Of a stretch of 64,000 nt of DNA, positions 524-33,169 are shown in pieces (the first letter of the stretch is position 1; each line of letters begins with the position of its first letter). This DNA comes from Crossaster papposus (taxonomy: Eukaryota > Echinodermata > Asteroidea > Velatida > Solasteridae): positions 1,488,001-1,552,000 of the forward strand of contig JBAIAA010000441.1 of the NCBI GenBank assembly GCA_037893245.1, in the 5' to 3' direction. The notes under the pieces are model-generated. The model was not told the DNA's origin and searched no databases. It was given only the letters and a program-made list of their open reading frames with translations. The position numbers were made by a program, and so were the translations under genes.

Positions 524-532
524 TATAATACG
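524..532 (+). CDS. Microexon 1 (YNT), 9 nt
   Basis: The acceptor is acatggctcatcacgcaag (505-523) and the donor is gtaagagt, one base off the array consensus gtaagtgt. The three phase-0 codons read Tyr-Asn-Thr. This is one of eight 'late-AG' cassettes in which the usual ttacag acceptor reads ttacat and the next AG lies 15 nt downstream. The flanks closely match the copies at 22,860 and 25,102, but the exon differs. Use of this exon is inferred. Confidence 0.5.
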
Positions 533-1054
533 GTAAGAGTAAATTCGATTCGCCTTCACTTTTTAACTTCGGAGTTCATATAAGTTTATTTCACGGTTTC
601 GCCATAATCTGGTCGATATTCTGTCACTAATTATGGCATTTACATAATTTCTAAATTCAGAAGAATTTGTTCCTGCCAGGAAGTGACATAGTTGCTTTGA
701 TATTAAATCGTCAATACATGTTAGGAGCCTCTGGGTGCCTTTTTAAGATGCCAAGTGCACCCCCTGGATCCTGTCTTATAGAACGATTATAGAATGCATT
801 AAAACGAATGGTAATGATTTCACTGTCAACCTGTTTTAAAAAGTGTAAATTTAAAAAGGAAAGAAGTTAGCCTCCCCAGCCAGAAATAAATATTTTACAA
901 AGTTTATTTTGCATACCGGTATAAGTGAATAGAACCAACTTTCGTTTTATTGGTTACAATAAAGTTTATTTTTATCGTCAGATAAAAACAATGTATATTC
1001 TTAAAGATGTTTTCTTACTATTGTAATGTTCACCTCTCTTTCATTCCCTTGCAG

Positions 1055-1075
1055 ATGTCAATGAATACTCCTATG
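1055..1075 (+). CDS. Microexon 2 (MSMNTPM), 21 nt
   Basis: The acceptor is tcattcccttgcag and the donor is gtaagtttatgctgtcatta. Seven phase-0 codons read MSMNTPM. Its flanks pair with microexon 21 at 31,164, which has the same ttccttgcag / gtaagtttatg frame but an unrelated peptide. The matching module near 19,080 has lost this exon by deletion. Confidence 0.55.
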
Positions 1076-2225
1076 GTAAGTTTATGCTGTCATTAGAGAG
1101 GTTGAGATTTATATGCATGTGCGTGTATACGTAAGCATACTATCAGTTTACCCAAAAAAAGACACGTTCTCGGTTGTCATCTTAAGCGCATGTGTGTGAT
1201 ATCATGCCTTCAAAACCAAGTTTACGCTAAATGTTAACAACATTTTAAGACGATTGCCTTGGGATACCAACAATAGTATGAAATCAGTTTTGTTATTTTA
1301 TAAATATGCCTTGTAGATTGGCTACCTTGTGGTTTAGCGCTATTGTTCGTCAGTGTCGATCGCTTTCCATTTTGCCGCATACATACCTACGTAGTTCATT
1401 AATCTTAGTCGGATTTGTCATAAAGAGTCAATTTTTCATGGTTTGGCCAGGGTTGGTTCAGATTAGACAACCTGTTCCATTATGGTCATCAAAAAGGAGA
1501 TGAATCACTTTGTTTATCACTCGTGAGAGTTCATAGTGCCAGTGACATATGAATTTATCGGGTTAAACCCTCTCACGTAACCGGTCACTCTTCTAATTAT
1601 CTTCACTTAGTCGTGCGCAATACTATACCAATAAGTCCGGATTTTATAAAGTCTGAAATTCATGCCAAATTTAAACCAGACGTCCAAATTTTGGTCAAAT
1701 GTCCTCTAGGCGATTATGGTATGCAAGTCGTCTCAGTACAGTGCAAATCCCCTCAACTCCTACCTGTACCGTTTGGGAACGTAATGTTGTTCGAAAGTCC
1801 TATAATGATGAGAACAGTCGAAGAACATCGGGCTTATCAAATCAGATGATCTTATGTATTACGCGGATATGTATCTATACGTATTTATCTAATTGTGATC
1901 TCCCTAATATACCTTGTAATACAGTGGGCCTACTTAATATTTTCCTCTGCTTTGTCATTACTCGCTCATTCCCTTCCTATTGATTATTTTACTGAGGTTC
2001 AAATCTTGATTAATCACGACTGTTTACACACAATGTCGCTGGGCGATTAGGAGTTTTCTATCGATAATTATTTCCTCATCTGTTTTAATGAAGTATCAGT
2101 TCAAGACGTAAGATGAAGACAAAGTGTTCAATCCTGTGCCATTTTCTTGATATTTCTTGTCTATATACACACAATTAAACGTTATCAAATAATGTTTTTC
2201 TAACAACTCTTTTATTTGTTTACAG

Positions 2226-2252
2226 GAAGGTTACCGTGATGTGCCATCACAG
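2226..2252 (+). CDS. Microexon 3 (EGYRDVPSQ), 27 nt
   Basis: The acceptor is ttatttgtttacag and the donor is gtaagtgtacatt. Nine phase-0 codons read EGYRDVPSQ. Paralogous cassettes at 27,403 (GGYRGVLLQ) and 20,215 (EVSSP, shortened) share the same upstream intron. The YRDVP core resembles an SH2-type docking site if the segment is cytoplasmic and phosphorylated, which is inference. Confidence 0.65.
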
Positions 2253-3313
2253 GTAAGTGTACATTAAGAAGCCGCGGATCGAAGATTTCCCAAACTGGCC
2301 CGTCAAATGTACTGTAGCTATATAACGGTGAAGGCAAATTGCGGCGCCGAAGGCGGGCCCGCCTGGTGCATTTTCTTGTGATCTAAGGCATATTTGTCTT
2401 GGTTTTGTGGGTGTGTGTGCATCTACCCCTCCCTATCTTGCTCTTGTTTATGTTGCCAGGAAACCAGAATAGCTGCCTTGTTTTTAACTGAAAACTATTT
2501 ATATTTTCCCCTGTCTTTGATAGTCTGTTTTTACTCATAGAAGTTCAGCTACATATGACTTACTTTCGATTCCCTTACATTGAAATTGAATGAGCTGAAA
2601 ACAAACTCAATGTGCTTTTTCCGATATGTTGTTCCTTTTACTCATGATAATATGGGCTGGCCCTCCCTCTCTGATTATAGGAACCCTGTGATAAGCGTGC
2701 GTGCGTATGTATGGGCGTCCAGGGCCGAATTTTTGTCCTAGTCCGTCCGCCCCTGTTTAGGTCCTTTTGCGTACACTAAGAGTAAATAGAATCCACCATC
2801 TAATTATATGATCAATACTCGAATAGAGATAATTTAGGTGTCGTTGATTGCAAGTTGCCATGGGTGTTTTGTTGTGTTCGTTCAGTCGTATTATTATTAA
2901 GGTATTGATTTGTCCACGCTTGTCAAATACGTTTTCCCACTATTCTTTTATTTTGTTTTCTATTCGCATCAAAACATTGGTTTGAGGGGTATCAATGTAG
3001 TTGATATACATGTACTGAGATTCAAAATAACCACAGACTCAGTAAAAATTCTACCAACATCCAACGAATGTCGCTGGGTCAAAATGATCGAGATTATCTT
3101 GATACGACTGTTTATACACAATGTCTCTGGGCGATTAGGAGTTTTCTGTCTAGAATCATTCCCTGATCTGTTTTAATGAAGTATCAGTTGAAAACGTAGG
3201 ATGAATATAAAGTGTTCAGTCCTGTGCCATTTTGTTGATATTTATTTTCTATGTACACACAATTAAACTTTATCAAATAATGTTATTCTCATATCTCTTT
3301 TATTTCTTTACAG

Positions 3314-3334
3314 CCTGCACCCTTGTCGTTCCCG
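3314..3334 (+). CDS. Microexon 4 (PAPLSFP), 21 nt
   Basis: The acceptor is ttatttctttacag and the donor is gtaagtgtacattcgatt. Seven phase-0 codons read PAPLSFP. The downstream intron is very close to those after microexons 13 and 15, whose peptide is SAPWPPR. It belongs to the proline-rich 21-nt class together with LPPIPPP. Confidence 0.65.
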
Positions 3335-5131
3335 GTAAGTGTACATTCGATTCTCCTTCACTTGTTAACTTCGGAGTTCATATAAGTTTATTTCACGGTT
3401 TCGATATTCTGTCACTAATTATGGCATTTACATAATTTCTAAATTCAGAAGAATTTGTTCCTGTCAGGAAGTGACATAGTTGCTTCGATATAAAATCGTC
3501 AATACATGTTAGGAGCCTCTGGGTGCCTTAAGATGCCAAGTACACCCCCTGGATCCTGTCTTGTAGAACGATTATAGAATGCATTAAAACGAATTGTAAA
3601 TATTTCACTGTCAACCTGCTTTAAAGTTGCAACCGAAACATTTTCATGCTGCACGAAAACCTAACATATTTACCGGGAAAAGTCTCTGAAAAGTGGCCGA
3701 ACGATCTTAATTTTTTTCATAACTTTGTGCCATGCCATGTTTGAGTTCTTGTTGCATACAGATATTATTGAATATAGAACCAATTATGTAATACTATTAT
3801 GATCAATACACGATCAATGATTTTGTCAGGAAACCAGACTAGCTGCCTTGTTTTTAACTAAAAACTAGTGTTTCTTTCCCTGTCTTTGATAGTTTGTTTT
3901 TGCTCATAGAGGTTCAGCTACGTATGACTTACTTTCCATTTCCTTCTACTGAAATTGAATGGGCTGAAAACGAACCCAATGTGCTTTTTCCGATATTTTG
4001 TTCCTTTTACTTACGATATTATGGGCTGGCCCCCCCCTCTCTGATTATAGGAACCCTTTGATAAGCGTGCGTTTGTATTGACCGGCAATCGTGGTCGTCG
4101 GACAAAAGAATTGGGAGTCAAACAATGGGTCCACGATTGACAAAACGTCCACGATCTTTTCTCGTGTACAAATCCTATTGCGATCATCCGAAAATGTTAG
4201 AGTATAAACAAAAGAGGGAAGACGGTCGGACAATGCCCCGTCCACGATTGAAGGTCTTTATCAAGATGCAGGCGTGTGTGTGTGTTTTTATGTCATGCCC
4301 TCCAATATTTTGCAGGCCCTCAAATATTTCCTAGATCTTCGAATCTTTCTTAGGTCCCCAAATATTTTGTAGGCCCCCAGATATTTTGTGTCAAAAAATA
4401 GCCTCGAAGCGGACTCGTCATTTCCATCTGAAAACAACATTATTTTTGTAATTTCAGTTGAATTTCTTTTAAAGGACGCAACTCTATGTCTCAATTAGCC
4501 CTCTCAAAAGGTTTTATCTTCGGTGCAACCTTTTGTCATGTAAAAATTACTACTTGTTGTTTTAACCTACCAAGAAGTATACATGTAGATACCATAATAC
4601 TATAGAACAGTCACAATTCACCTCCAGCTATAAATGGACACATTTTGGAGTTTACAAATCACACCGAAGCATTCATAAATCTCCCCATTGCAAGCGAAAG
4701 GAAGAAAGTGTAACTCTAAAAAAGAAAGAAGTTAACCTCCCAAGTCCAGTCAAATTTTTTTCAACGACAAAACTTCTGAATATTACCGTTCCCTCAAAAC
4801 TTGCTTCACTCAATCTTTCTGTTTTCGTGATTTTATTACACGGCGGAGTTTTGCGTTTTTCTTGGATTGCGATTTCACAGGTTTAACTTCTTTATAAAAT
4901 TATGTCATTGGAATAAGAAAAAATCTAGAGAAAAAGAGGAAATATCCAGAAGAAAATGTTGAAACTTTGTAATAGTATATATTTATTGAAACTCAAGATA
5001 AAGACAAAGTGTTGAATAATGTGCCGATTTCTTGGTTTGTATTCCCTTTATAGGCCTACACACAATTAAACTGTATAAATTAATGTTTTTCTAACATCTT
5101 TTTTGTTTCTTTACATGTCTTATTCGGCAAG

Positions 5132-5140
5132 GACGTGGAG
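5132..5140 (+). CDS. Microexon 5 (DVE), 9 nt
   Basis: The acceptor acatgtcttattcggcaag (5113-5131) is a diverged form of the late-AG type, and the donor is gtaagtgtacattcgatt. Three phase-0 codons read Asp-Val-Glu. This is the most diverged acceptor of its class, yet the reading phase is kept. Confidence 0.45.
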
Positions 5141-7011
5141 GTAAGTGTACATTCGATTCGCCTTCACTGTTTAACTTCGAAGTATATTTCGCGGTTTTCC
5201 ATATCTAGTCGGTATACTGTCATCAGTGTGCGATTTTTCTTCGTTAGTTTAAATCTGCCTGACTATTATTGGTTCCATATAAACTCTTACATTGTTGAAG
5301 TCAATTGCAGGACTGCGATATTATTTCTTTTGACTTAATGTCGTGCAAGACCAAACTTCACTTTAAACTACAGTGTTAATAAATGTTACAGAAGTATCAA
5401 GTACACTCATGGATCTTGTCTTGTAAAACGATTATAGAGTGCATAGAAACGAATGGTAATTATTTCACTGTCAATCTGCTCTAAAGTTGCTTTAAAGTTG
5501 CAACCGAAACATTTCCATGCTGCACGAAAACCTAACATATTTACCGGAAAAAGAGTCTGAAGAGTAACCGAACGATCTTCAATTTTTTTTTACGACTTTG
5601 TGTTATGCCATGTTTGAGTTCTCGTTGCATACAGATATGAGTGAATATAGAACCAACTATGTAATACTGTTATGATCAATACACGATCAATTATTTTGTC
5701 AGGAAACCAGACTAGCTGCCTTGTTTTTAACTAAAAACTAGTGTTTTTTCCCCTGTTTTTGCTAGTCTGTTTTTACTCATAGAGGTTCAGCTACGTATGA
5801 CTTACTTTCAATTCCCTTCTACTGAAATTAAATGGGCTGAAAACGAACCCAGTGTGCTTTTCCCGATATTTTGTTGCTTTTACTCACGATATTATGGGCT
5901 GGCCCTCGCTCTCATAAATCACCCAATTGCACGCGAAGGGAAGACAGTGTAACTTTAAAAAGGAAAAAAGTTGTGAACAACAAGGTGTTAACTGATGGAT
6001 GCAGTACACATCCAAAGTCACTTTCCCCCTCTCTGAAAAGGAACTTTAGAGGGAATTGGGGTTGGAGTTATACATGTTTGTGTATAAATGAAGGGGGACA
6101 CTTGAGTGGACCAGAATCCAAATTTGGGGTTGAAAACATTTTCTGAATGCAAGAAAAAATAGTACTTAGCCAAAGTGTTGTTAACTACATGTTTTGTACC
6201 TGAATGTCCACAGTATCGTATCGTGGTGCGTTTTTGTGTAGTGTAATTTCATGTGAGTTTGTTTTTGATTGAAATAGTGGACGTATAAATAAAGAGGACA
6301 ATAGGGTCCCCTATTTCGCCAAGGTCCCCGATTCGGACTTGTGTGCAAATCTTATGGCGATCACCCGAAAACGTTAAAGTACACAAAAGAGGTCTCAATT
6401 AGCCCTCTCAAAAGGTTTTATCTTAAGTTCAACATTTTGTCATGTAACAGTTACTACTTGTTGTTTTAACCTACCAAGAAGTATACATGTAGATACCATA
6501 ATACTATAGAACAGTTACATTTCACCTCCAGCTAATAGACACATTACAAATCAATTTACAAATCACACCGAAGAATTCATAAATCACCCCATTGCAAGCG
6601 AAAGGAAGAAAGTGTAACTTTAAAAAGGAAAGAAGCCCAAGTCCAGTCAAATTTCCTTCAACAACAAAACTTCTGAGTATTACTGTTTCCCCAAGCCTTG
6701 CTTCACTCAATCTTAATGTTTTCGTGATTTTATTACACGGCGGAGTTTTGCGTTTTTTCTTGGAGGACGATTTCACATATTTAACTTCTTTACACAATTA
6801 TGTCATTGGAATTATATAAAAAAATCCAGAGGAAAGGAGAAAATATCCAGAAGAAAACGTTGAAACTTTGTAATAGTATATATTTATTGAGACGTAAGAC
6901 GAAGACAAAGCGTTGAATCCTGTGCCATTTTCTTGGTTTGTATTCCCTTTATATACACTATTAAACTGTATCAATTAATGCGTTTCTATCATCTCTTTTG
7001 TTTCTTTACAG

Positions 7012-7032
7012 CTTCCACCCATACCGCCACCG
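7012..7032 (+). CDS. Microexon 6 (LPPIPPP), tandem unit 1
   Basis: The acceptor is ttgtttctttacag and the donor is gtaagtgtacattcgatt. Seven phase-0 codons read LPPIPPP. The peptide is a short polyproline motif of the kind bound by SH3, WW or EVH1 domains (family knowledge; binding here is inferred). Confidence 0.7.
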
Positions 7033-8694: not shown

Positions 8695-8715
8695 CTTCCA
8701 CCCATACCGCCACCG
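8695..8715 (+). CDS. Microexon 7 (LPPIPPP), tandem unit 2
   Basis: Its sequence and both splice sites are identical to the exon 1,683 bp upstream. If spliced to its neighbours it would extend a proline-rich repeat in steps of seven residues. Confidence 0.7.
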
Positions 8716-10377: not shown

Positions 10378-10398
10378 CTTCCACCCATACCGCCACCG
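10378..10398 (+). CDS. Microexon 8 (LPPIPPP), tandem unit 3
   Basis: This is an identical exon with the same acceptor (tttctttacag) and donor (gtaagtgtac). The spacing to the previous copy is exactly 1,683 bp. Confidence 0.7.
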
Positions 10399-12061: not shown

Positions 12062-12082
12062 CTTCCACCCATACCGCCACCG
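12062..12082 (+). CDS. Microexon 9 (LPPIPPP), tandem unit 4
   Basis: The exon and splice sites are identical to the other units. The spacing is 1,684 bp because of a one-base T-run difference in the intervening intron near 10,630. Confidence 0.7.
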
Positions 12083-13744: not shown

Positions 13745-13765
13745 CTTCCACCCATACCGCCACCG
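13745..13765 (+). CDS. Microexon 10 (LPPIPPP), tandem unit 5
   Basis: This is the last exon of the five-unit tandem. The upstream intron matches the other units. The downstream intron switches within about 45 bp to the module found after microexon 16 (25,110 onward), marking a recombination or duplication boundary. Confidence 0.7.
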
Positions 13766-14919: not shown

Positions 14920-17872
14920 AGGGTACTTGAAATTCAAAACTTTAATATGGCGAAATATACGTTTTAATAATGCTGAATACTTAACATCTGCAAAAACTTC
15001 ATATTTGTTTATGTTAGTTCATTAATCGTGACCCTAAAATAAAAAGCAATATGCGCCGTGCCCCGCCCATAAAAGATGACGTCACGGTAAGAATAGAGCG
15101 TGGCTGTACAAGGCTAAGCATAGCCTTGAATACAAGGCTATGCTGTATCCGCAACGTGGGATCATCGTTTGCCACAACACTAAACGTGTAGATAGCCGTA
15201 TACATACGTGTACATACATAGCCGTGCACATACGTATAATAATGCATTGCGGGCTATGTACATGTTTGGTGTTATGACAAACGATGATCCCACGTTGCGG
15301 ATACAGTGCAGCCTTGTATTCAAGGCTAGGCTTAGCCTGGTATATCCACGCTATATTCTTACCGTGACGTCATCTTTTGTGGGCGGGGCACGGCGCATAT
15401 TGCTTTTCATTTTATAATAATAATAATAATAATTACACATTTATACCGCGCAAAATATCTGTCCAGAAACAGGACACCCAAGGCGCACATCAGGAGAGAA
15501 AAAAATAAAAAATTGGAGGAAAAAAGGTTCGAATCAATGAATGAAGTATTAATCAAATCACGAGAAGGTTTGGGTGTATAAGAAAGTCTTCAAATTTGAC
15601 TTAAAACACTGTAGGGATGAAGATTCGTGGATGTCCCTTGGGAGAGTATTCCAAACTCGTGGTGCAGCTACTACGAGTGACCTGTCTCCCCACGATCGTC
15701 TCGATCTGATCTCCGACAACCTGTGCAAGTTGCCGGAGCGAAGACCTGAACGGCGGGGAACATTAGTTTGAAAAAGCTCCGAGATGTACAGTGGAGATTG
15801 ACCGGTAATTGCCTTAAAGGTTGTCATGGCAAGTTTGTATTGAAGTCGCTGTTTGATGGGGAGCCAGTGTAGTTGCTTGAGGATTGGTGTGATATGTGAT
15901 GAAGACCGGGAACCGGAGATAAGACGTGCAGCTGTATTCTGCACCTTTTGCAGTCTCTTGATCTGTCGTTGAGGTAACCCAAATAATGTGGAATTGTACA
16001 AGTCTAGACGTGAGGATACTAGTGCATGAATGAGCAGCTTTGTTGCTTGTGGATTCAGGTACTCTCTAATTCTGCGAATGTTTCGCAGGTGGTAGACCGA
16101 AGACCTAACACAAGATGAAATTTGATGTTCCATAGTCATGTTGGCGTCGAGTATCAGACCAAGATCACGAACTTTGTCGGCAGGGCGTATTTGGGAATCC
16201 CCGACTTTGATGTATGGGATGGTGACTTTCTTTCGGTGTTGAACAGATCCAAAGAGAATGAATTCACTCTTGCTTTCATTCAGTTTGAGATAGTTATTTG
16301 TCATCCAAGTCATGATCTCTGCTACACACGATTCCAGTCTAGCAACGATGCAATCGATATCACTCTGATTAGGCAGACAGGATGCGTACAACTGTATATC
16401 ATCTGCATACACATGGTACATGAGGTTATGTCTAGTGATAATGTCACCGATCGGCAAAATATAGAGGGAGAACAGCTGTGGTCCAAGTACGGAGCCTTGA
16501 GGCACAGAGAAGTTGACAGCTACTGGTTCCGATGAAACGGCTCCAACTCGCACCGATTGTGTCCGGCCATGAAGATAAGAACTGCACCACTCAATGACAG
16601 ATCCACCGATACCAAGATCAGCCAGTCTATGAATCATTATCTCATGGTCGACAGTATCGAATGCTGAACTGAGATCTAAGAGGATAAGGCCTGTCAGCAT
16701 GCCTCGGTCCATAGCTTGAAGCACGTCATTGCTTACTCGCAACACAGCCGTCTCAACGCTATGATTCTTCCGGTAAGCAGATTGATGAGGATCTTGGAGC
16801 TGTTTATCATCTATGTATTCAAGAATACGTGATGACACGACTCGCTCAATAACTTTTCCAAGATACTTTAAATTTGCCACTGGTCTGTAGCTTCCAAGAG
16901 CTTCCCTGTTAAGATCCGACTTTTTAAGTAGAGGTCTAATAATCGCGTGTTTAAAGTTTCCAGGAAATATACCTTCCTCAAGCGACCTATTCACCAGACT
17001 CGTGATAAACGGAGCAAAGATATCCACATGCTCCCTAATCAACCAAGTTGGGAGTGGGTCCTGACCACATGACTTGGCAGGTGAGCGCATGATGACGTTC
17101 TTGACCTCCTCAACTGAAGCTGGCTCAAAGGAGGAAAGTTGTGAGTCTGTGGATGAACTTGGCCTCTCGTCGTTTGTGGATCTCTGTGCCCCATGTTGCT
17201 CAAGGACATCGCGTATCTTGGTGATTTTGCTCAGATAATGCTCAGAAAAACTATTGGCTAAATCTCGTTCCGATGTGTGGTTAGGCAGCACCGGGTCACC
17301 TGTCCTATGAAGGAGTTTGTTGACAATTTTGAACAGTTCTTTCTGGTCAGTAGAGCAGCTATCGACAGCTGCGGAGTAGAACTCCCTTTTTGCGTTTCTG
17401 ATAAGTTTGATGACAGTTTGGCATTGTTTCTGATACAGTTGCCGATCTGCATCGGACCTCCTCCACTTTCTCTCCAACCTTCGTCTGGATTGCTTAGCAG
17501 CCCGGATTTCATCGTTATACCATGGCGACATCCGTTTGTGTATAACGGATCGAGTCTTTACAGGAGCAAGTTGTTCAAGAAGGTTTTTGATAGAAGATTC
17601 AAATTCCACCACTGATTGGCAGAGATTGTTGTTCTCCACATCAATTAACGACAAAGTTTCGCGAACACCAGATTGAAAAAGATCTCTGTTGAGGCCCTTC
17701 CAATTCCGTGTGGTGACGGTCTTCCTCACAGGGTCTGGTTTCTGCAAAGCCAATTTAGGGTCACGATTAATGAGCAAACCTAAACAAATAAGAAGTTTTT
17801 GCAGTTGTTAAGTATTCAGCGTTATTAAAGCGTATATTTCGCCATATTAAAGTTTTGAATTTCAGTTACCCT
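14920..17872. mobile_element. TTAA-flanked foldback element containing a LINE
   Basis: The outer inverted repeats are about 120 bp (14920-15040 and 17757-17872), beginning agggtac and ending gttaccct. They are bounded on both sides by TTAA (14916-14919 and 17873-17876). The inversion continues inward as 15042-15180 against 15265-15412, with a short loop between. Removing the LINE leaves a foldback of about 0.6 kb. The related locus at 26,226-26,250 has the uninterrupted site with a single TTAA, which shows the insertion directly. A TTAA target duplication is typical of piggyBac-type transposition (family knowledge). No transposase is present, so it is a non-autonomous copy. Confidence 0.85.
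15416..17756 (-). mobile_element. 5'-truncated CR1/L2-type LINE with long RT ORF
   Basis: A single open frame runs on the minus strand (about 17,777 down to 15,558, 739 codons counted from a TTG in the flanking arm). It lacks the apurinic endonuclease that normally precedes RT, so the element is 5'-truncated. Visible RT landmarks are SYRPVANL (about residue 296), DLSSAFDTVDH (368-378, motif A), PQGSVLGP (426-433, motif B) and YADD (457-460, catalytic motif C), followed by a C-terminal segment with LYNSTLFGLPQRQIKRLQ. The 3' end (left side) is a TAA microsatellite. A TTTA duplication brackets the insertion into the right arm of the foldback element. The intact frame suggests a fairly recent insertion. 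Clade assignment is by resemblance only. Confidence 0.88.
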
Positions 17873-17881: not shown

Positions 17882-17908
17882 GATGAAGACGAAGGCGTAA
17901 TTGAATAT
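17882..17908 (+). CDS. Microexon 11 (DEDEGVIEY), 27 nt
   Basis: The acceptor is ttaatacag and the donor is gtaaggacaact. Nine phase-0 codons read DEDEGVIEY, an acidic peptide ending in tyrosine. The foldback/LINE insertion ends five bases before the acceptor AG, inside what was the polypyrimidine tract. Upstream is now ttcagttaccctttaatacag. The undisturbed paralogue is microexon 17 at 26,246 (VEDEGVIEY). Confidence 0.55.
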
Positions 17909-18034: not shown

Positions 18035-20214
18035 ATGCTGGGCCTGCCGAAACAAAGTGTTTAGGCCGTAGTCATGTTGTAGGACCTACTCCGCCCTAAC
18101 TAGCACCAATTTCAAAGCTTTGACTGGTAAAGCGGTTGTCACACATTCGAAACCTAAACTCCCGATTGACGCACGACCTTCACGATCTAAAAAAAAAAAA
18201 AATTGCGAGGAAAACGTAGGAAATGTGGCACCAAAATAAAAAATGTCACGAGGTTAAGTCCAACTCACGTTTGTCAAGAACTATACACTCGTGTATCGCT
18301 CTGAAAGGTTTTGAGTGGAACGCCACACTCCCATCGCTCCGACCATGTCCCGCCATTAATTCCACTTAAAAAATTAAACCCTCTAACGTGACTGGTCACT
18401 CTTCTAATTATCTTCACTTAGTCATGCGCAATACTATACCAATGAGTCCGGATTTTATAAAGTCTAGAATTCATGCCAAATTACAACCAGGCGTCCAACT
18501 TTTAGGTCAAATGTCCCCCGGGCAAGTAGGGTATGCAAGTCGTCTTAGAACAGTGCAAACCCCCCCCCCCCCCCCCCCCCCCCACCCTAACTCCAGCTTG
18601 TGATCGAGTCTCGACCAATCAAAAGCCAGCAACTCTCCTAAGTATTAATGCTATACCAAGAAGTATAGATACCATAGATACCATAATAATATATAGACCA
18701 GTAAAACATTTCACCTCCAGCCAATAGACACATTGTGTAGTTCACAAATCACACAAAATGCAATCGAAAGGTAAAAAACATGATTATGAAAAAGATAAGT
18801 AATTTTCCTATAGCCATAAATTAGATATTTCAGCAAGTTCAGTCACATTTTTTTCAACACAAATATCTGAGGCTATTTCTCCCACCCATTTCACGCCCCT
18901 TGTTTCACGTTTATTTCACGGTTTCGCCCCATCTGGTCGATATACTGTCACCAATTATGGCATTTACATAATTTCAAAATTCAGAAGATTTTTTCCCTGT
19001 CAGGAAATGACATAGTTGCTTTGATATAAAATTGTCAATATAAGTTAACTTCCTCAGCCAGAAATAGATATTTACAAAGTTCATTTTGCCAGAGCATACT
19101 ATGTAAGCATACTATCAGTTTACCAACACGAAAGACACGTTCTCAGTTGTCACCTTAAGCGCATGTGTGTGATTGCATGTGTTTAAAATCAAGTTTAACT
19201 CAAATGTTGACAACATTTTAAAACGATTGCCTTGGAATACCAACAATAGTTTGAAATCATCAGTTGTTTTTATTGTGTAAATACACTGATTAATGATGCC
19301 TTGTAGATTGGCTACCTTGTGGTTTATCGCTATTGTTCGTCAGTATCGATCGCTTTCCTCCATTTTGCCGCATACATACCTACGTAGTTTATTAATCTTA
19401 GTCGGATTTGTTATAAAGAGTCAGTTGTTCATGGTTTGGCTAGGGTTGGTTCAGATTAGACAACCTGTGCCATAACGGTCATCAAAAATGAGATGAACCA
19501 CTTTGTTATCTCTCGTGGGAGTTCATAGTGCTGGTGTCATATGAATATCAGGTTAAACCCTCTCACGTGACCGGTCACTCTCCTAATTATCTTCACTTAG
19601 TCATGCGCAAAACTATACCAATAAGTCCGGATTTTATAAAGTCTGAAATTCATGCCAAAATAAAACCAGACGTCCAAATGTTGGTCAAATGTCCTTCGGG
19701 CGATTATGGTATGTTAGTCGTCTCATACAGTGAAAATCCCCTCAACTCCTACCGCTGTACCGTTTGTGAACGTAATGTTGTTCGAAAGTCCTAATGATGA
19801 GAACAGTCGAAGAACATCGGGCTTATCAAATCGGATGATCTTATGTATTACGCGGATATGTATCTATACGTATTTATTTAATTGTGATCTCCCTAATATA
19901 CCTTGTAATACAGTTGGTCTACTTAATATTTTCCTCTGCTTTGTCATTTATCGCTAATTCTCTTCTTATTGATTATTTTACTGAGGTTCAAATCTTGATT
20001 AATCACGACTGTTTACACACAATGTCTCTTGGCGATTAGGAGTTTTCTATCGATAATTATTTTCTCATCTGTTTTAATGAAGTATCAGTTCAAGACGTAA
20101 GATGAAGACAAAGTGTTCAATCCTGTGCCATTTTCTTGATATTTCTTGTCTATATACACACAATTAAACGTTATCAAATAATGTTTTTCTAACAACTCTT
20201 TTATTTGTTTACAG

Positions 20215-20229
20215 GAAGTGTCATCACCG
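20215..20229 (+). CDS. Microexon 12 (EVSSP), 15 nt
   Basis: The acceptor is ttatttgtttacag and the donor is gtaagtgtatac. Five phase-0 codons read EVSSP. The upstream intron is nearly the same as before microexon 3 (27 nt), so this looks like a shortened relative that lost 12 nt while keeping frame. A SINE sits about 35 bp downstream. Confidence 0.6.
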
Positions 20230-20263: not shown

Positions 20264-20293
<30 letters not shown>

Positions 20294-21623: not shown

Positions 21624-21644
21624 TCCGCACCATGGCCGCCACGG
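21624..21644 (+). CDS. Microexon 13 (SAPWPPR), 21 nt
   Basis: The acceptor is ttatttctttacag and the donor is gtaagtgttcattcgatt. Seven phase-0 codons read SAPWPPR. The exon is identical to microexon 15 at 24,273, with closely similar introns, so these two are a recent duplicate pair. Confidence 0.65.
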
Positions 21645-22859
21645 GTAAGTGTTCATTCGATTCGCCTTCACTTTTTAACTTCGGAGTTCATATACGTTTA
21701 TTTCACGGTTCGCCATAATCTGGTCGATATTCTGTCACTAATTATGGCATTTACATAATTTCTAAATTCAGAAAAATTTGTTCCTGTCAGGAAGTGACAT
21801 AGTTGGTTCGATATAAAATCGCCAATACATGTTAGGAGAGTCTGGGTGCCTTTTTAAGATGCCAAGTACACCCCTGGATCCTGTCTTATAGAACGACTAT
21901 AGAGTACATTAAAACGAATGGTAATTAATTCACTGTCAACCTGCTTTAAAATTGCAACCGAAACATTTCCATGCTGCACAAAAACCTAACATATTTACCG
22001 GGAAAAGTCTATGAAAAGTGGCCGAACGATCTTAATTGTTTTCACAACTTTGTGCCATGCCATGTTTGAGTTCTTGTTGCATACAGATATTATTGAATAT
22101 AGAACCAACTATGTAATACTATTATGATCAATACACGATCAATGATTTTGTCAGGAAACCAGACTAGCTGCCTTGTTTGTACCTAAAAACTAGTGTTTCT
22201 TTCCCTGTCTTTGATAGTTTGTTTTTACTCATAGAGGTTCAGCTACGTATGACTTACTTTACATTACCTTCCATTGAAATTGAATGAGCTGAAAACGAAC
22301 CCAATGTGCTTTTTCCGATATTTTGTTCCTTTTACTCACGATAATAATGGGCTGGCCCTTTCTCTCCTAAATCATCCAATTGCAAGCGAAAGGAAGAAAG
22401 TGTAGGCCTCACTTAAAAAAAAAAAAATTAACCTCCAGAGCCAGAAAAAGATATTTACTAAGAAAAGCAAGTCCAGTCCAATTTTCTTCAACAACAACAA
22501 AACTTCTGAGTATTACTGTTCCCTCAAAACTTGCTTCACTCAATCTTTATGTTTTCGTGATTTCATTACACGGCGGAGTTTTGCGTTTTTCTTGGAGGAC
22601 GATTTTACAGGTTCAACTTCTTTTTACAATTATGTAATTGGAATTAAACAAAATTAATCCATAGGAAAGGAGAAAATATCCAGATGAAAACGTTGAAACT
22701 TTGTAATAATATATCCATTGAGACGTAAGATGAAGACAAATTGTTGAATCCTGTGCCATTTTCTTGGTTTGTATTCCATTTATACACAAAATTAAACTGC
22801 ATCAATTAATGGTTTTCTAACATTTCTGTTTTGTTTCTTTACATGGCTCATCACGCAAG

Positions 22860-22868
22860 TATGAAACG
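22860..22868 (+). CDS. Microexon 14 (YET), 9 nt
   Basis: The late-AG acceptor acatggctcatcacgcaag is followed by three phase-0 codons Tyr-Glu-Thr and the donor gtaagtgtacattcgatt. It differs from microexon 1 (YNT) at three of nine exon bases, while the acceptor block is identical. Confidence 0.55.
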
Positions 22869-24272: not shown

Positions 24273-24293
24273 TCCGCACCATGGCCGCCACGG
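24273..24293 (+). CDS. Microexon 15 (SAPWPPR), 21 nt
   Basis: The acceptor is ttatttctttacag and the donor is gtaagtgtacattcgatt. It has the same peptide and DNA as microexon 13. The proline-tryptophan-proline core is unlike the neighbouring exons. Confidence 0.65.
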
Positions 24294-25101: not shown

Positions 25102-25110
25102 CGTCTACGG
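25102..25110 (+). CDS. Microexon 16 (RLR), 9 nt
   Basis: The late-AG acceptor acatggctcatcacgcaag is followed by three phase-0 codons Arg-Leu-Arg and the donor gtaagtgtaaattcgatt. It is the only strongly basic microexon. Its flanks match the acidic and tyrosine-bearing members of the class. Confidence 0.5.
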
Positions 25111-26020
25111 GTAAGTGTAAATTCGATTCGCCTTTACTGTTTAACTTCGGAGTTCATATAAGTATATATTTCACGGTTTCGCCATATCTTGTCGATATAC
25201 TGTCAGTGTATATGCTATTTGTTTTCGTTAGTTTAACTCTGCCTGAAAATCATTGGTTCCAAATAAACTCTTACAGTGTTGAAGTCAATTGTGCACCGAA
25301 TCATTTCCATGCTGCACGAAAACCTAACCGGGGGAAAAAAGTCTGAAGAGTGGCAGAACGATCTTCAATTTGTTTTAACGACTTTGTGCCATGCTATGTT
25401 TGAGTTCTTGTTGCATACAGATATTAGTGAATATAGAACCCACTATGTAATACTATTATGATCAATACACATATGAATACGACATTGTTCGTATTATTGG
25501 TTGAAAGTTACCCGCCAATAATCCCCAGTTTGCTTTTAACCTTTTATCCGTTTCGGTTTATCAGATAAAAACATAATTTCCGAATGCAATATAATTTCGC
25601 TCTGCCCGAAACTTACATCACAAGTTTAAATATAAATGGTCATTAAATGGTATGAACATCTGAATGATCAAGTACAGCCCTCGACACTGTCTTGAAGAAT
25701 AACAGAAATCACAAAATGTCACCGTCAACCAGCTTTAAACATACAACAAATATATCGTTGTGATCGAGATTGTCGCGATGCGACTGTTGACACGGCGACT
25801 GTGATGTGGAGTTGTCTGTCGTTTGAGCTCCTTTTGCATAAAACAATAGGGAATAGAATCAATCATAAATATGACCAACACACGATATAAATATGATAAG
25901 GTTCGTTTTATTGATTGCGAGCTTACCAAATGTAGTTTACTGGGATTCCAAGTAACTACAGACAGGGACGTAGCGATTAGGGAGGGAGTGGGTGGTCACA
26001 CACATTCCCAATAATTTCTC

Positions 26021-26145
26021 TCGGTCGGCATTTCGAGCCCCAGTCGGCAAATGGCCTGTACCACATAACCTCAGTCGGCAAATGGGCCACCAAATTAATA
26101 ATTTGGTGGCCCATTTGCCGACTGAGGCTCTAAATGCCGACTGAG
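26021..26145. repeat. Palindromic hairpin, copy 2
   Basis: This is the same inverted repeat as at 14,708-14,825, with a longer perfect core (ggccaccaaattaa / taatttggtggcc) and an extra tcagtcggcaaatg inside the left arm. It lies at the matching place upstream of microexon 17. Confidence 0.75.
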
Positions 26146-26245
26146 TATTCTTTCCCTGCCCATCTTCATTTTTTTTAACGACTTTATGCCATGTTGCGAC
26201 CCCAGCAATATAACATATTTTCCCATCTTGTTTTATTTAATACAG

Positions 26246-26272
26246 GTTGAAGACGAAGGCGTAATTGAATAT
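26246..26272 (+). CDS. Microexon 17 (VEDEGVIEY), 27 nt
   Basis: The acceptor is ttgttttatttaatacag and the donor is gtaaggacaact. Nine phase-0 codons read VEDEGVIEY. It is the uninterrupted paralogue of microexon 11, differing in the first codon. It preserves the polypyrimidine tract that the transposon displaced in the other copy. Confidence 0.62.
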
Positions 26273-27402
26273 GTAAGGACAACTCGTTTTATTTCTTTGG
26301 AGGGTGCAGCTGTCTATATATCTCAGTCAGCCATACACCTATGTTCATCCTGCCACTTGCTACTGCGCATGCTACTGCGCATGCTACTGCGCATGCTAAT
26401 GCTGGGCCTGTCGAAACGAAGTGTTTAGGCCATAGTCATAATTATTTTGTAGCCCCTACTCCGCCCTAACTAGCACCAATTTCTAAGCTTTGACTGGTAA
26501 AGCGGGTGTCACACATAATAGACCAAAACTCCCGATCAGCGCACGACCTTCACGATCTAAATTTGTTTAAATCGCGAGGAGAACGTAGGAAATGTCGCAC
26601 CAAAATAACAAATGTCACGAGGTGAAGTCCAACTCACGTTTGTCAAGAACTATACACTCGTGTATCGCTCTGAAAGGTTTTGAGTGGAACGCCACACTCC
26701 CATCGCTCCGACCATGTCCCATCATTAATTCCACTTGTTAACCCTCTCATGTGACCGATCACTCTCCTTATTATCTTCAATTATTCATGCGCAATACTAT
26801 ACCAATGAGTCCGGATTTTATAAAGTCTGAAATTCATGCCAAAATAAAACCAGACGTCAAAATGTTGGTCAAATGTCCTCCAGGCGATTAGGGTATGCAA
26901 GTCGTCTCATACAGTGAAAATTCCCTCAATTCCTACCGCTGTACCGTTTGTGAACGTAATGTTGTTCGAAAGTCCTAATGATGAAAGAACAGTCGAAGAA
27001 CATCGGGCTTATCAAATCGGATAATCTTATGTATTACGCGGATATGTACGTATACGTATTTAATTAATTGTGATCTCCTCAATATACATTGTAATACAGT
27101 GGGCCTACATAATATTTTCGTCTGCGTTGTCATTTATCGATCATTCCCTTCTTATTGATTATTTTACTGATGTTCAAATCTTGATTAATCACGACTGTTT
27201 ACACACAATGTCTCTGTGCGATTAGGAGTTTTCTATCGATATTTATTTCCTCATGTGTTTTAATGAAGTATCAGTTGAAGACGTAAGATGAAGACAAAGT
27301 GTTCAATCCTGTGCCATTTTCTTGATATTTCTTGTCTATATACACACACAATTAAACGTTATCCAATAATGTTTTTCAAACAACTCTTTTATTTGTTTAC
27401 AG

Positions 27403-27429
27403 GGAGGTTACCGTGGTGTGCTATTACAG
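27403..27429 (+). CDS. Microexon 18 (GGYRGVLLQ), 27 nt
   Basis: The acceptor is ttatttgtttacag and the donor is gtaagtgtacattaag. Nine phase-0 codons read GGYRGVLLQ. It aligns with microexon 3 (EGYRDVPSQ). The introns on both sides are close copies, while several exon codons are replaced. Confidence 0.62.
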
Positions 27430-29763
27430 GTAAGTGTACATTAAGCAGCCGCAGATCGAAGATTTCCCAAACTGGCCCGTCAAATGTACTGTATAGCTAT
27501 ATAACGGTGAAGGCAAGTTGCGGCGCCGAAGGCGGGCCCGCCTGACCTGCTTGAGGGGTCTGGTGCATTTTCTTGTAATCTAAGGCATATTTGTCTTGGT
27601 TTTTTTTTTGTGCCTCTACCCCTCCCTATCTTGCTCTGTTTTTATGTTGCCAGAAAACCAGACTAGCTGCCTTGTTTCTAACTAACAACTATTTATATTT
27701 TCCCTGTCTTTGATAGTCTGTTTTTACTCATAGAGGTTCAGCTACGTATGACTTACTTTCGATTCCCTTACATTGAAATTGAATGAGCTGAAAACGAACC
27801 CAATGTGCTTTGTCCGATATTTTGTTCCTTTTACTCACGATAATATGGGCTGGCCCTCCCTCTCTGATTATAGGAACCCTGTGGTGAGCGTCCGTGCGTA
27901 TGTATGAACGTCCGGGGCCGAATTTGTGTCCCAGTTCGCCCCTGTTGAATTCCTTTTGCGTACACTAAGAGTAAATAGAATCCACCATCTAATATGACCA
28001 ATACTCGAATAGAGATAATTGTAGTGTCGTTGATTGCAAGTTGCCACCCATGTTTTGTTGTGTTCGTTCAGTCGTATTATTATTATGGTATTTATTTGTC
28101 CACGCTTGTCAAATACGTTTTCCCACTATTCTTTTATTTAGTTTTCTATTCGCAGCATAACATTTGTTTTGAGTGTATCGATGTAGTAGATATACTGAAA
28201 TTCAAAATAACCACAGACTCAGTGAAACTGCTACCAACATCCAACAAACGTCACTGGGTCAAAATTATCGAGATTATCTTGATACGACTGTTTACACACA
28301 ATGTCTCTGGGCGATGAGGAGTTTTCTATCTATAATTATTCTATACCTGACATGTGAACAACAGTGTGTCAACTGATGGATGCAGTACACATCCAAAGTC
28401 AGTTCCCCCTCTCTGAAAAGGAACTTTAGATGGAATTGGGGTTAGAGTTATACATGTTTGTGTACAAATGAAGGGGGGCACTTGAGTGGACCAGAATCCA
28501 AATTGTTGAAAACATTAATAGTACTTACTAGCAAAAGTGTTGTACATGTGTTGTACCTGAATGTCCACAGTATCGTATCGGGGTGAGTTAGTCTTGCATA
28601 CGCACTGTGGACCTCCGAACAATATAGGTCCACACGATGCGGGAAGAGGTTACGGTGTGTGGACTTGCACACGTCCACAATCCGTTTTTCAGTTTCCGAA
28701 AAAGAGCGCTAGAGGAAAAACGGGTTAGGGTTATATATAGAAAAGATAGAAGGGACAGCTGAGAGGCCCATAATCCTAATTTGAGGGTAAATTTGTTTTG
28801 GGGAAGCGAGAAAAATGAGTATTTAGTCAAAGTTTGTTAATTACACGAATACAAAGGAATGTCCACAGTGCGTATGTAAGGTAAAGCTGCGTGTGCGTGC
28901 GTGTGTGTTTTTATGGCATGCCCTCCAATATTTTGCAGGCCCTCAAATATTTCATAGATCTTCGAAACTTTCGTAGGCCCTTAAATATTTTGTAGGCCCC
29001 TAGATATTTTGTGTCGAAAAATAGCACCGAATCGGACTCGTCATTTCCATCTGAAAACAACATTATTTTTGGTAATTTTAGTTGAATTTCTTTTAGAGGA
29101 CGCAACTCTATGTCTCAATTAGCCCTCTCAAAAGGTTTTATCTTCGGTGCAACATTTTGTCATGTAAAAGTTACTACTTGTTGTTTTAACCTAACAAGAA
29201 GTATACATGTAGATACCATAATACTATAGAACACTTACAATTCACCTCCAGCTAATAGATACATTTTTGAATTTACAAATCATACCGAAGCATTCATAAA
29301 TCACCCCATTGCAAGCAATCGGAAGAAAGTATAACTTTAACAAGAAACGATTAGTTAACCTCCCGAGCCAGAAATATATCTTTACAAAGAAAAGCAAGTC
29401 CAGTCAAATTTCCTTCAACAACAAAACTTCTGAGTATTACTGTTTCCCCAAGCCCTGCTTCACTCAATCTGTATGTTTTCGTGATTTCATTACACGACGG
29501 AGTTTTGCGTTTTTCCCTTGAAGGGCGATTTTACAGGTTCAACTTCTTTGGAATTATAAAAAAAGTCCAAAGGAAAGAAAGAAATATCCAGAAGAAAACG
29601 TTGAAACTTTATAATAGTACATTGAGACGTACGATGAAGACAAAGTGTTGAATCCTGTGCCATTTGCTTGGTTTGTATTTCCTTAATACACACTGTTAAA
29701 CTTCATCAACTAATGTTTGTCTAACATTTCTGTTTTGTTTCTTTACATGGCTCATCACGCAAG

Positions 29764-29775
29764 TTTGATGATGAT
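29764..29775 (+). CDS. Microexon 19 (FDDD), 12 nt
   Basis: The late-AG acceptor acatggctcatcacgcaag is followed by four phase-0 codons Phe-Asp-Asp-Asp and the donor gtaagtgtacattcgatt. A gat triplet repeat makes this the only 12-nt member of its class. Its length still keeps frame. Confidence 0.5.
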
Positions 29776-30812
29776 GTAAGTGTACATTCGATTCGCCTTT
29801 ACTGTTTAACTTCGGATTTCATATAAGTGTATTTCACGGTTTTGACACACGATTTTTCTTCGTTAGTTTAAATCTGCCTGAAAATCATTGGTTCCGTACA
29901 AACTCTTACATTGTTGAAGTCAATTGCAGGGCTGCAATATTATATCTTTTGACTTAATGTCGTGCAAGACCAAACTCCACTTTAAACTACAGTGTTAATC
30001 AATTTTACCGAAATGTCAAGTACACTCATGGATCCTGTCTTGTAAAACGATTATACAATGCATACAAACGAATGGTAATTACTTCACTGTCAAACTGCTT
30101 TAAAGTTGCAACCCAAACATTTTCATGCTGCACAAAAACCTAACATATTTACCGGGGTAAAAGAGTCTGTTTTTGATAGTCTGTTTGTACTCATAGAGGT
30201 TCAGCTACGTATGACTTACTTTCCATTACCTTCCATTGAAATTGAATGGGCTGAAAACGAACTCAGTGTGCTTTTTCCGATATTTTGTTCCTTTTACTCA
30301 CGATAATATGGGCTGGCCCTCGCTCTCATAAATCACCCGATTGCAAGCGAAAGGAAGAGAGTGTAACTTTAAAAAGGAAAGAAGTTAACCTCCTGAGCCA
30401 GAAATAGATATTTACAAAGAAAAGCAAGTCCATTCAAATTTCCTTTAACAACAACAACACTTCTGAGTATTACTGTTTCCCAAGCCTTGCTTCACTCAAT
30501 CTGTCTGTTTTCGTGAATTCATTACACGGCGGAGTTTTGCGTTTTTCTTGGAGGGCGATTTTAAAGATTCAACGTTTTTATACAATTATGTCATTGTAAT
30601 TATAAAAAAGTCCAGATGAAAGGAGGAAATATCCGGAAGAAAACGTTGAAACTTTGTAATAATATATTTATTGAGACGTAAGATGAAACCAAAGTGTTGA
30701 ATCCTGTGCCATTTTCTTGGTTTGTATTCCCTTAATACACACTTTTAAACTTTATCAATTAATGTTTGTCTAACATTTCTGTTTTGTTTCTTTACATGGC
30801 TCATCACGCAAG

Positions 30813-30821
30813 ATTTATGAG
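30813..30821 (+). CDS. Microexon 20 (IYE), 9 nt
   Basis: The late-AG acceptor acatggctcatcacgcaag is followed by three phase-0 codons Ile-Tyr-Glu and the donor gtaagtgttcattcgatt. Confidence 0.52.
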
Positions 30822-31163
30822 GTAAGTGTTCATTCGATTCGCCTTCACTGTTTAACTTCAGAGTTCATAAGTATATTTCACGGTTTCGCCATATCTGGTC
30901 GATATACTGTCATCAGTGTCTGTCATCGTTAGTTTAACTCTGCCTGAAAATCATTGGTTTCATATAAACTCTTACAGTGTTGAAGTCAATATTGCAGGGC
31001 TGCAATATTATATCTTTTGACTTAATGTCGTGCAAGACCAAACCCCACTTTAAACTACAGTGTTAATAAATGTTAAGTACAAAATCGTTTCGGTCGTCAA
31101 ATAAAAACAATGTATATTTTGGTCCAAGATGTTTTTTCACACATCTCATTTATTTCCTTGCAG

Positions 31164-31184
31164 CTGCAATTTGAGCAGTCATCA
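31164..31184 (+). CDS. Microexon 21 (LQFEQSS), 21 nt
   Basis: The acceptor is tttatttccttgcag and the donor is gtaagtttatgccgtcatta. Seven phase-0 codons read LQFEQSS. Its flank class is shared with microexon 2 (MSMNTPM). Only 78 nt separate it from microexon 22. Confidence 0.58.
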
Positions 31185-31262
31185 GTAAGTTTATGCCGTC
31201 ATTATTAATGAATGCTTGTCTAACATTTCTGTTTTGTTTCTTTACATGGCTCATCACGCCAG

Positions 31263-31271
31263 AATGAAATG
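31263..31271 (+). CDS. Microexon 22 (NEM), 9 nt
   Basis: The acceptor acatggctcatcacgccag is the late-AG class with one base changed, and the donor is gtaagtgtaaattggatt. Three phase-0 codons read Asn-Glu-Met. The 78-nt intron before it joins the downstream flank of a microexon-2-type cassette to the upstream flank of a late-AG cassette, a sign of recombination between cassettes. Confidence 0.5.
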
Positions 31272-32426
31272 GTAAGTGTAAATTGGATTCGCCTTTACTG
31301 TTTAACTTCAGAGTTCATATAAGTATATTTTACGGTTTTGCCATATCTGGTCGATATACTGTCATCAGTTTGACTTAATGTCGTGCAAGAACAAACCCCA
31401 GTTTAAACTACAGTGTTAATAAATGTTCCCGAAGTGTCAAGTACACTCATGGACCTGGTCTTGTAAAACGATTATAGAGTGAATAGAAACGAATGGTAAT
31501 TAATTCACTGTCAACCTGCTTTACAGTTGCAACCGGAACATTTCCATGCTGCACGAAAATCTAACATATTTACCGGGAAAAGAGTCTAAAGAGTGACAGA
31601 ACGATCTTCAATTTTTGTAACGACTTTGTGTTATGCCATGTTTGAGTTCTTGTTGCATACAGATATTATTGAATAGAACCAACTATGTAATACTATTATG
31701 ATCAATACACGATCAATGATTTTGTCAGGAAACCAGACTAGCTGCCTAGTTTGTAACTAAAAACTAGTGTTTCTTTCCCTGTTTTTGACAGTTTGTTTTG
31801 CTCATAGAGGTTCAGCTACGTATGACTTACTTTTCATTTCCTTCTACTGAAATTGAATGGGCTGAAAACGAACCCAATGTGCTTTTTCCGATATTTTGTT
31901 CCTTTTACTCACGATAATAATGGGCTGGCCCTCCTTCTCATAAATCGCCCAATTGCAAGCGAAAGGAAGAAAGTGTAACTTTAAGAAGGAAAGAAGTTAA
32001 CCTCCCGAGCCAGAAAAAGATATTTACTAAGAAACGCAAGTCCAGTCCAATTTTCTTCAACAACAACAAAACTTCTGAGTATTACTGTTCCCTCAAGCCT
32101 TGCGTCACTCAATCTTTATGTTTTCGTGATTTCATTACACGGCGGAGTTTTGCGTTTTTCTTGGATTGCGATTTCACAGGTTTAACTTCTTTATACAATT
32201 ATGTCATTGGAATAAGAAAAAATCTAGAGAAAAAGAGGAAATATCCAGAAGAAAATGTTGAAACTTTGTAATAGTATATATTTATTGAGACGTTAAATAA
32301 AGACAAAGTGTTGAATCCTGTACCATTTTCTTGGTTTGTATTCCCTTAATACACACTTTTAAACTTTATCAATTAATGTTTGTCTAACATTTCTGTTTTG
32401 TTTCTTTACATGGCTCATCACGCAAG

Positions 32427-32435
32427 TTTGGTGAT
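32427..32435 (+). CDS. Microexon 23 (FGD), 9 nt
   Basis: The late-AG acceptor acatggctcatcacgcaag is followed by three phase-0 codons Phe-Gly-Asp and the donor gtaagtgttcattcgatt. It is a sister of microexon 19 (FDDD). Confidence 0.5.
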
Positions 32436-33142
32436 GTAAGTGTTCATTCGATTCGCCTTCACTTGTTTGTAACTAAAAACTAGTGTTTCTTTCGCTGTCT
32501 TTGATAGTCTGTTTTTACTCATAGAGGTTCAGCTACGTATGACTTACATCCCATTACCTTCCATTGAAATTGAATGGGCTGAAAACGAACTCAATGTGCT
32601 TTTCCCGATATTTTGTTCCTTTTACTCACGATAATATGGGCTACCCTCTCTCTCATAAATCACCCAATTGCAAGCGAAAGGAAGAGAGTGTAACTTTAAA
32701 AAGAAAAGAAGTTAACCTCCTGAGCCAGAAACAGATATTTACAAAGAAAACAAGTCCGGTCAAATTTCCTTTAACAACAACAAAACTTCTGGGTATTATT
32801 GTTTCCCAAGCCTTGCTTCACTCAATCTGTCTGTTTTCGTGATTTCATTACACGGCGGAGTTTTGCGGTTTGTTTTTTTGGTTTTTTTGGGGGGAGGGCG
32901 ATATTACAGGTTTAACTTTTTTTTACAATTATGTCATTGGAATTAAACAAAATTAATCCATAGGAAAGGAGACAATATCCAGAAGAAAATGTTGATACTT
33001 TGTAATAATATATCCATTGAGACGTAAGATGAAGACAAAGTGTTGAATCCTTTGACATTGTCTTGGTTTTTATTCCCTTTATACACAGTATTAAACTTTA
33101 TCACTTAATGTTTTTTCTAACATCTCTTTGTTTTCTTTACAG

Positions 33143-33169
33143 TGGCGAGGTGCTAGCTCGAAGTCACCG
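33143..33169 (+). CDS. Microexon 24 (WRGASSKSP), 27 nt
   Basis: The acceptor is ttgttttctttacag and the donor is gtaagtgtacattcgatt. Nine phase-0 codons read WRGASSKSP. This is the last recognisable cassette exon before the constant region. The next exon, 1.05 kb downstream, starts in phase 0 and is compatible with it. Confidence 0.65.

Follow-up and report, generated by a model that had tools for sequence, protein, structure and literature searches.

A predicted array of frame-preserving, mostly fast-diverging microexons ahead of a ZU5-UPA-Death gene in Crossaster papposus

We analyzed a 64,000-nucleotide (nt) stretch of the genome of Crossaster papposus (contig JBAIAA010000441.1, positions 1,488,001 to 1,552,000), hereafter the window, whose first half contains an array of microexons spanning positions 524-33169. 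These microexons are predicted to feed, in frame, into a downstream gene with ZU5, UPA, and Death domains, and the whole locus would represent the 3′ portion of a single animal gene encoding a product that terminates in these three domains. The array has expanded by tandem duplication, and most of its exon sequences diverge faster than their own introns. Our favored reading, which we hold tentatively, is that the microexons encode a fast-evolving disordered segment, probably built by variable exon inclusion, which would lie ahead of the ZU5-UPA-Death module and serve as a variable bait or as a recognition or docking segment.

The array consists of 24 microexons, all on the + strand, which together amount to 435 nt, that is, 145 codons. 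All 24 have lengths divisible by three (seven of 9 nt, one of 12 nt, one of 15 nt, 10 of 21 nt, and five of 27 nt), and the introns between them range from 78 to 4116 nt. The original prediction of 24 exons of 9-27 nt over 33 kilobases (kb) is matched exactly, both in coordinates and in count. By their flanks, the microexons fall into several types. Type A1 comprises microexons 3 (2226-2252, 27 nt, EGYRDVPSQ), 12 (20215-20229, 15 nt, EVSSP), and 18 (27403-27429, 27 nt, GGYRGVLLQ), and type A2 comprises microexons 4 (3314-3334, PAPLSFP), 13 (21624-21644, SAPWPPR), and 15 (24273-24293, SAPWPPR), each of 21 nt. Type A3 is found in microexon 24 (33143-33169, 27 nt, WRGASSKSP) and in microexon 6 (7012-7032, 21 nt, LPPIPPP), the latter being the first of five identical exons in tandem units of 1683/1684 base pairs (bp), the others being microexons 7 (8695-8715), 8 (10378-10398), 9 (12062-12082), and 10 (13745-13765), all encoding LPPIPPP. 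These five exons share one sequence, and microexons 13 and 15 share another. Microexons 2 (1055-1075, MSMNTPM) and 21 (31164-31184, LQFEQSS), both of 21 nt, are of type C, and microexons 11 (17882-17908, DEDEGVIEY) and 17 (26246-26272, VEDEGVIEY), both of 27 nt, are of type D. The eight remaining exons are of type B and have 9 nt each, except for microexon 19 with 12 nt (29764-29775, FDDD): microexons 1 (524-532, YNT), 5 (5132-5140, DVE, diverged), 14 (22860-22868, YET), 16 (25102-25110, RLR), 20 (30813-30821, IYE), 22 (31263-31271, NEM, preceded by the 78-nt intron), and 23 (32427-32435, FGD). In all eight type B units, AT stands where the type A acceptor has its AG, and the AG used lies 15 nt downstream, a multiple of three (e.g., 22845-22860); the skipped 15 nt are near-invariant in seven of these units and different in the 5132 unit. 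Since the first unit begins at or before base 1 of the window, the array, which has at least 24 microexons, may extend further upstream.

The window is eukaryotic, with spliced genes and transposon open reading frames (ORFs), and the array region (1-33500) is repetitive and transposon-rich. This repetitive character, together with the disruption of one unit by an insertion, is what might be expected of a decaying tandem repeat carrying chance splice-like sites and unexpressed exons. We find this explanation scarcely credible, in view of the lengths of the exons, their open frame, their donor sites, and the match of their phase to the downstream gene. Among the 19 distinct exon sequences, none has a stop in frame 0, whereas frame 1 has stops in three of them and frame 2 in 11, and when the bases were permuted inside each exon, all 19 were stop-free in frame 0 at a frequency of 0.00055 (20000 shuffles). 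The earlier claim that every exon is stop-free and a multiple of three is therefore borne out. The donor GTAAGT is present in 21 of the 24 microexons versus one of the eight other predicted exons of the gene, an excess that is as expected if very short exons require strong splice sites. Along with the divergence pattern described below, a more telling observation is that the three differences in exon length found within flank families (12, 6, and 3 nt) are all multiples of three versus 13 of 42 intron insertions and deletions, although three events are weak evidence taken alone.

A blind splice-site scan, which looked for a pyrimidine tract, an AG, 9-27 nt, and GTAAG, with thresholds set after the exons had been seen, identified 25 candidates on the + strand of the array region, 23 of which are stop-free multiples of three. 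Array microexons make up 23 of the 25, with the exon at 17882 being missed, and the scan found no candidate on the minus strand of 1-33500 or on either strand of 33501-64000. When applied to 100 dinucleotide shuffles, the same scan returned on average 1.35 candidates (maximum 7), and 0.35 that are stop-free multiples of three (maximum 3), a comparison that overstates the case since the microexon copies are tandem duplicates and hence not independent. An earlier and stricter scan, which required a pyrimidine tract immediately adjacent to the AG, found 16 of the 24 microexons; these 16 all have type A flanks, and the eight of type B were missed entirely. Two kinds of candidates were left out of the count. 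Open AG...GTAAG stretches of 57 nt, a multiple of three, occur 5′ of A1 exons at 20040-20096 and 27226-27282 and are probably an intronic repeat, which has a poor pyrimidine tract and recurs near 2040 and 3130 (forms judged by eye). The 14-nt scan matches at 2094 and 20083 are intronic and belong to the same repeat as these stretches.

The array has expanded via tandem duplication. Self-comparison of the window yields 250 pairs longer than 150 bp, mostly located between position 1 and ~33.5 kb, and includes a ~7-kb tract at 98 percent identity with a period of 1683-1684 bp. The array copies are also retrieved by hidden Markov models of the sequences flanking 13 seed exons. One unit has been hit by an insertion (14920-17871), which has ends that are inverted over ~40 nt (GGGTA...TACCC), a target repeat resembling TTTAA, and, inside, a reverse-transcriptase ORF on the minus strand (15558-17807). 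This insertion lies 10 nt away from the AG acceptor of microexon 11 and has taken the place of the pyrimidine tract that is found in the intact copy at 26246, a change that may have weakened the splicing of this exon.

Most exon sequences diverge faster than their own introns. This was seen in seven disjoint pairs of related units (named here by the first base of their exons), with introns sampled 40-500 nt from the exon, the pairs and units for all the divergence comparisons having been hand-picked by us. Exons differ at 43 of 122 positions in gapped alignments (51 of 123 ungapped) versus 336 of 4099 intron positions, and the gapped contrast has a p of about 3e-16 (Fisher test, sites treated as independent). 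The ungapped counts, in which unequal exons are aligned from their first base, tend to favor acceleration: gapping reduces the differences from 17 to 12 in pair 7012/33143, and from 8/9 to 5/8 in pair 29764/25102. Five of the seven pairs are individually strong (p of 1e-4 to 2e-13), with an exon divergence of 40-90 percent and an intron divergence of ~8 percent. Type B units display the same picture at the level of single columns. Across the eight units, no variation is seen in 24 of the 30 columns upstream of the exon and 21 of the 26 downstream of it, whereas all nine exon columns vary, and the mean pairwise identity of the exons, 0.393, is near saturation, with borders at 0.95 and 0.92. In seven of these units, the one at 31263 being left out of this comparison since its upstream side is of different origin, the six 9-nt windows with the highest divergence, out of 233, each overlap the exon and five lie wholly inside exon columns; their divergence is 0.51-0.62, the highest value outside the exon being 0.26. 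The original prediction had proposed a diversification system, and for most related pairs the case is stronger than it stated, since the letters of the exons outpace those of the introns.

Such divergence bears on the possibility that the microexons form a constitutive, expandable disordered linker, comparable to the PEVK region of titin, in which length and disorder alone matter. The composition of the array is compatible with such a spacer (38 of the 145 encoded residues are Pro and 22 are Asp or Glu), and the five identical LPPIPPP units suggest changes in copy number. However, an unconstrained spacer would be expected to drift only as fast as the introns, by ~8 percent, well below the 40-90 percent seen in five pairs, and we regard this explanation as quite unlikely.

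Codon-level counts point to amino acids as the target of selection. Across the seven closest pairs, to which this count is restricted and in which exons 22860 and 2226 are used twice and 3 and 12 nt were dropped in two pairs, the proportion of nonsynonymous differences (pN) is 0.200 and that of synonymous differences (pS) is 0.108, for a total of only 26 synonymous sites. We favor selection on amino acids because pS is near the intron value of 0.082 and pN is about twice as high. These same values speak against a local mutational process, for example templated replacement or a conversion aimed at the exons, that would alter the letters of the exons with no selection at the codon level. The near saturation of type B exons between well-kept borders could be viewed as the trace of such a process, and so could pair 3314/24273, which is divergent at synonymous sites (2.8/6.2) about as much as at nonsynonymous ones (6.2/14.8). 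To our knowledge, however, there is no mutational mechanism that would stop so precisely at splice-site borders, and we deem this explanation highly improbable.

Downstream of the array, nine exons, all on the + strand, join on the basis of splice sites and open frames as one 572-codon frame that runs to a stop at 41342. The first, a predicted exon of 55 nt (34215-34269), has a good acceptor and the junction sequence GAAACCAGC. The array is predicted to join the ZU5 gene in frame because this exon takes phase 0 and gives phase 1, which is the phase that the ZU5 exon needs. Phase 0, earlier only a possibility, is thereby supported. The ZU5 exon (34903-35549), in which His-Phe-Thr codons are found at 35394-35402, is followed by two predicted UPA-like exons. 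The first (36800-36931) contains the start of UPA as aligned to UNC5B, and the second (37544-37717), which has no database match of its own, is placed by order and open frame. Then come two small predicted exons, one of 54 nt (38178-38231) that ends in CNICQK and one of 33 nt (39968-40000) that encodes DEAREICTSCK, a predicted linker exon (40317-40605, phase 0 in, phase 1 out), a predicted 44-nt exon (40820-40863, phase 1 in, phase 0 out), and the Death-domain exon (41054-41344), with its stop codon at 41342-41344. As for a Dscam-like docking sequence that would pair exactly with the units, on the 3′ side of the array no k-mer of 10-12 nt from 33451-34902 has its reverse complement in at least eight of the 24 units. 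Rfam gave no match at gathering score.

The constant partner of the array, which had been part of the original prediction, could be identified as ZU5-UPA-Death. Pfam matches ZU5 (3.7e-17, 62.8 bits, for a cut-off of 21) and Death (4.5e-13, 49.6 bits, for a cut-off of 22.6), which are the only two domains above cut-off in the downstream protein, where no UPA model matches. The closest solved structures are UNC5B (1.3e-11, 47 bits), whose alignment is limited to residues 56-246 (ZU5 plus the beginning of UPA), and the Death domain of CRADD (1.3e-11); the Death domain also matches PIDD chain 9tuf weakly (E 0.002). The region that separates UPA from Death includes two small exons (38178-40000), which together encode a CxxC...CxxC pair (CNIC...CTSC), which is a possible zinc site, the zinc-ribbon Pfam matches at this pair being sub-threshold only. 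We know of no such zinc site in PIDD or UNC5. An AlphaFold2 model of the ZU5 exon, computed with no alignment, was not used (mean predicted local distance difference test score 34.3, predicted template modeling score 0.24).

The His-Phe-Thr motif, HF-T, is a possible site of self-cleavage. Threonine functions at some self-cleaving sites, such as HL/S-T of adhesion G protein-coupled receptors. The Phe of HF-T aligns with Leu-677 of UNC5B (chain position 137, numbering anchored by Cys-663, Glu-666, and Cys-670), and the available text of PMC3210808 places Phe-296 of CARD8 at this same position of UNC5B. It also describes self-cleavage of PIDD after ZU5 at HF/S, and of CARD8 and NLRP1 at SF/S (PMC3210808). 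HF-T therefore has the His and Phe of PIDD, with a Thr where PIDD has a Ser.

The partner domains are also relevant to a conventional role in signaling. The microexons might encode ligand motifs for SH3, WW, EVH1, or SH2 domains, located in the cytosolic juxtamembrane part or linker of a UNC5-like or PIDD-like protein and included through tissue-regulated splicing that would tune its binding partners, with no link to pathogens. The array does contain proline-rich and tyrosine peptides, which resemble SH3, EVH1, or SH2 ligands, and UNC5B, to which the ZU5 and initial UPA portion is closest among solved structures, is a guidance receptor. The portion of PMC8358048 available reports a regulated 33-nt cassette exon in UNC5B, whose 11 residues are extracellular. 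Conserved partner motifs should nevertheless slow the exons, whereas most of these outpace their introns; conservation is apparent only for the type D pair and among the identical copies. We see this as a possible alternative, and an unlikely one.

Our favored reading, a variable segment ahead of the ZU5-UPA-Death module, suggests the following mechanism. Unequal exchange between the long similar introns would gain, lose, and homogenize units, and selection for novel peptides, perhaps exerted by pathogens or binding partners, would push most exon sequences apart. Any included subset would stay in frame because every exon is a multiple of three in phase 0, and different cells or individuals would present different sets of short motifs, proline-rich (LPPIPPP and SAPWPPR) or tyrosine/acidic (EGYRDVPSQ, DEDEGVIEY, YNT, IYE, and FDDD), in a stretch whose 145 assembled residues look disordered. 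Binding or cutting of this bait stretch would alter the closed state of the ZU5-UPA module and, perhaps after self-cleavage at HF-T, the Death domain would be freed to signal, which would make the segment possibly akin to the CARD8/NLRP1 tripwire. We consider it rather doubtful that the locus encodes a combinatorial invertebrate death or inflammasome-like sensor, in which spliced microexon subsets would be a library of cleavage or binding baits placed before a self-cleaving HF-T ZU5-UPA-Death module.

Several observations weigh against a variable, fast-evolving segment of this kind. Pair 17882/26246 (type D) is not accelerated (1/27 versus 0.084 in introns, p 0.91), pair 2226/27403 is not significant (4/27, p 0.076), and A1 and A2 alignments contain intron windows that are more divergent than the exon. 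For pair 3314/24273, selection at the codon level is insufficient on its own. Seven exons belong to two identical sets, leaving only 19 distinct peptides. The array could be included constitutively, in which case the frame would be equally open. Finally, HF-T lacks the serine that was found essential in CARD8 and NLRP1.

As for precedents, the original prediction had named schistosome micro-exon genes (MEGs) and Dscam-type exon clusters as the nearest, neither having this size or this kind of partner. Close precedents in design do exist in schistosome MEGs and troponin T mini-exons, as does one for the partner in CARD8/NLRP1. By design, the closest are schistosome MEGs, for which the available text of PMC8293314 describes symmetric exons of at most 36 bp that can be removed without loss of frame and a raised ratio of nonsynonymous to synonymous substitutions. 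According to the same text, a 9-bp micro-exon was duplicated beside a transposon, and these genes are restricted to schistosomes and encode a signal peptide (PMC8293314). Short symmetric exons are common to MEGs and the array, where all 24 are of 9-27 nt and multiples of three, but those of the array are carried by homologous units arranged in tandem, with ZU5-UPA-Death as the partner.

By function, the closest precedent is the CARD8/NLRP1 tripwire. In the part of PMC10249858 available, CARD8 has a rapidly evolving, positively selected disordered N terminus before ZU5-UPA, which viral proteases cut, freeing the death-fold C terminus. As predicted for our locus, CARD8 and NLRP1 combine a fast-evolving disordered segment with ZU5-UPA and a death-fold domain (PMC10249858 and PMC3210808, as far as their available text goes). 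In these same portions, they differ from it by variation that is between species, a C-terminal caspase recruitment domain (CARD), and SF/S, as opposed to Death (by Pfam) and HF-T here, and the available text of PMC10249858 makes no mention of a microexon array. PIDD shares the ZU5-UPA-Death order predicted for the locus and the HF before the cleavage residue, but has more than one ZU5, leucine-rich repeats, and a serine at the site, whereas there is one ZU5 and a threonine here. UNC5 netrin receptors have the ZU5-UPA-Death order as well and provide the best solved match, with Leu in UNC5B where the cleavage motif has Phe; for their immunoglobulin, thrombospondin, and transmembrane parts, as for the leucine-rich repeats of PIDD and the signal peptide of MEGs, the corresponding 5′ part of the locus lies outside the window.

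Other systems share single features with the array. Troponin T has a tandem set of mini-exons in birds and an N-terminal hypervariable region, and we know of no acceleration of its mini-exons over introns. Alternative splicing of mini-exons is described for troponin T, including exons 4-8 of human TNNT3, in the available text on this gene, and for the array it is only predicted; unlike the array, troponin T is a muscle protein with few such exons. Dscam clusters consist of tandem exon copies of similar length, one of which is chosen at a time, and PRDM9 arrays have hypervariable positions inside a homogenized backbone. The array resembles both, in its tandem exon copies and in its hypervariable positions within a homogenized backbone, but differs from Dscam clusters, which have one exon length, by its five lengths of 9 to 27 nt. 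In the open literature, where absence is not absence from print, wording that combines ZU5 and microexon reaches only Ank3 in the text available, no alternative splicing of an echinoderm gene with ZU5 and a death domain was found, and the titles and abstract beginnings on microexon arrays concern plants and mouse only.

If spliced as predicted, this array would be a rare case in which microexons change fast while their introns stay alike, microexons being usually described as strongly conserved. It would also bring together in one locus two known ideas, the shuffling of microexons without loss of frame and the rapid evolution of a segment that precedes a ZU5-UPA death-fold module, and would provide a testable model for diversity, somatic or between individuals, in a cell-death pathway of animals. 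The array hints that variation is built into the front portion of a sensor for cell death or immunity. Exons as short as those found here, 9-27 nt, are of the kind that gene annotation readily overlooks, according to the available text on microexons.

The right half of the window contains several other elements. An inverted pair (47080-48223 and 49223-50366) displays 99.8 percent identity, and a 717-residue ORF (48131-50281) within 47080-50366 has a sub-threshold GIY-YIG match (E 0.0016); we take this element to resemble a Penelope-like retroelement. A 53-base poly-C tract (59583-59635) lies inside an ORF, and a TAGTCTC satellite (63322-64000) occupies the right end of the window.

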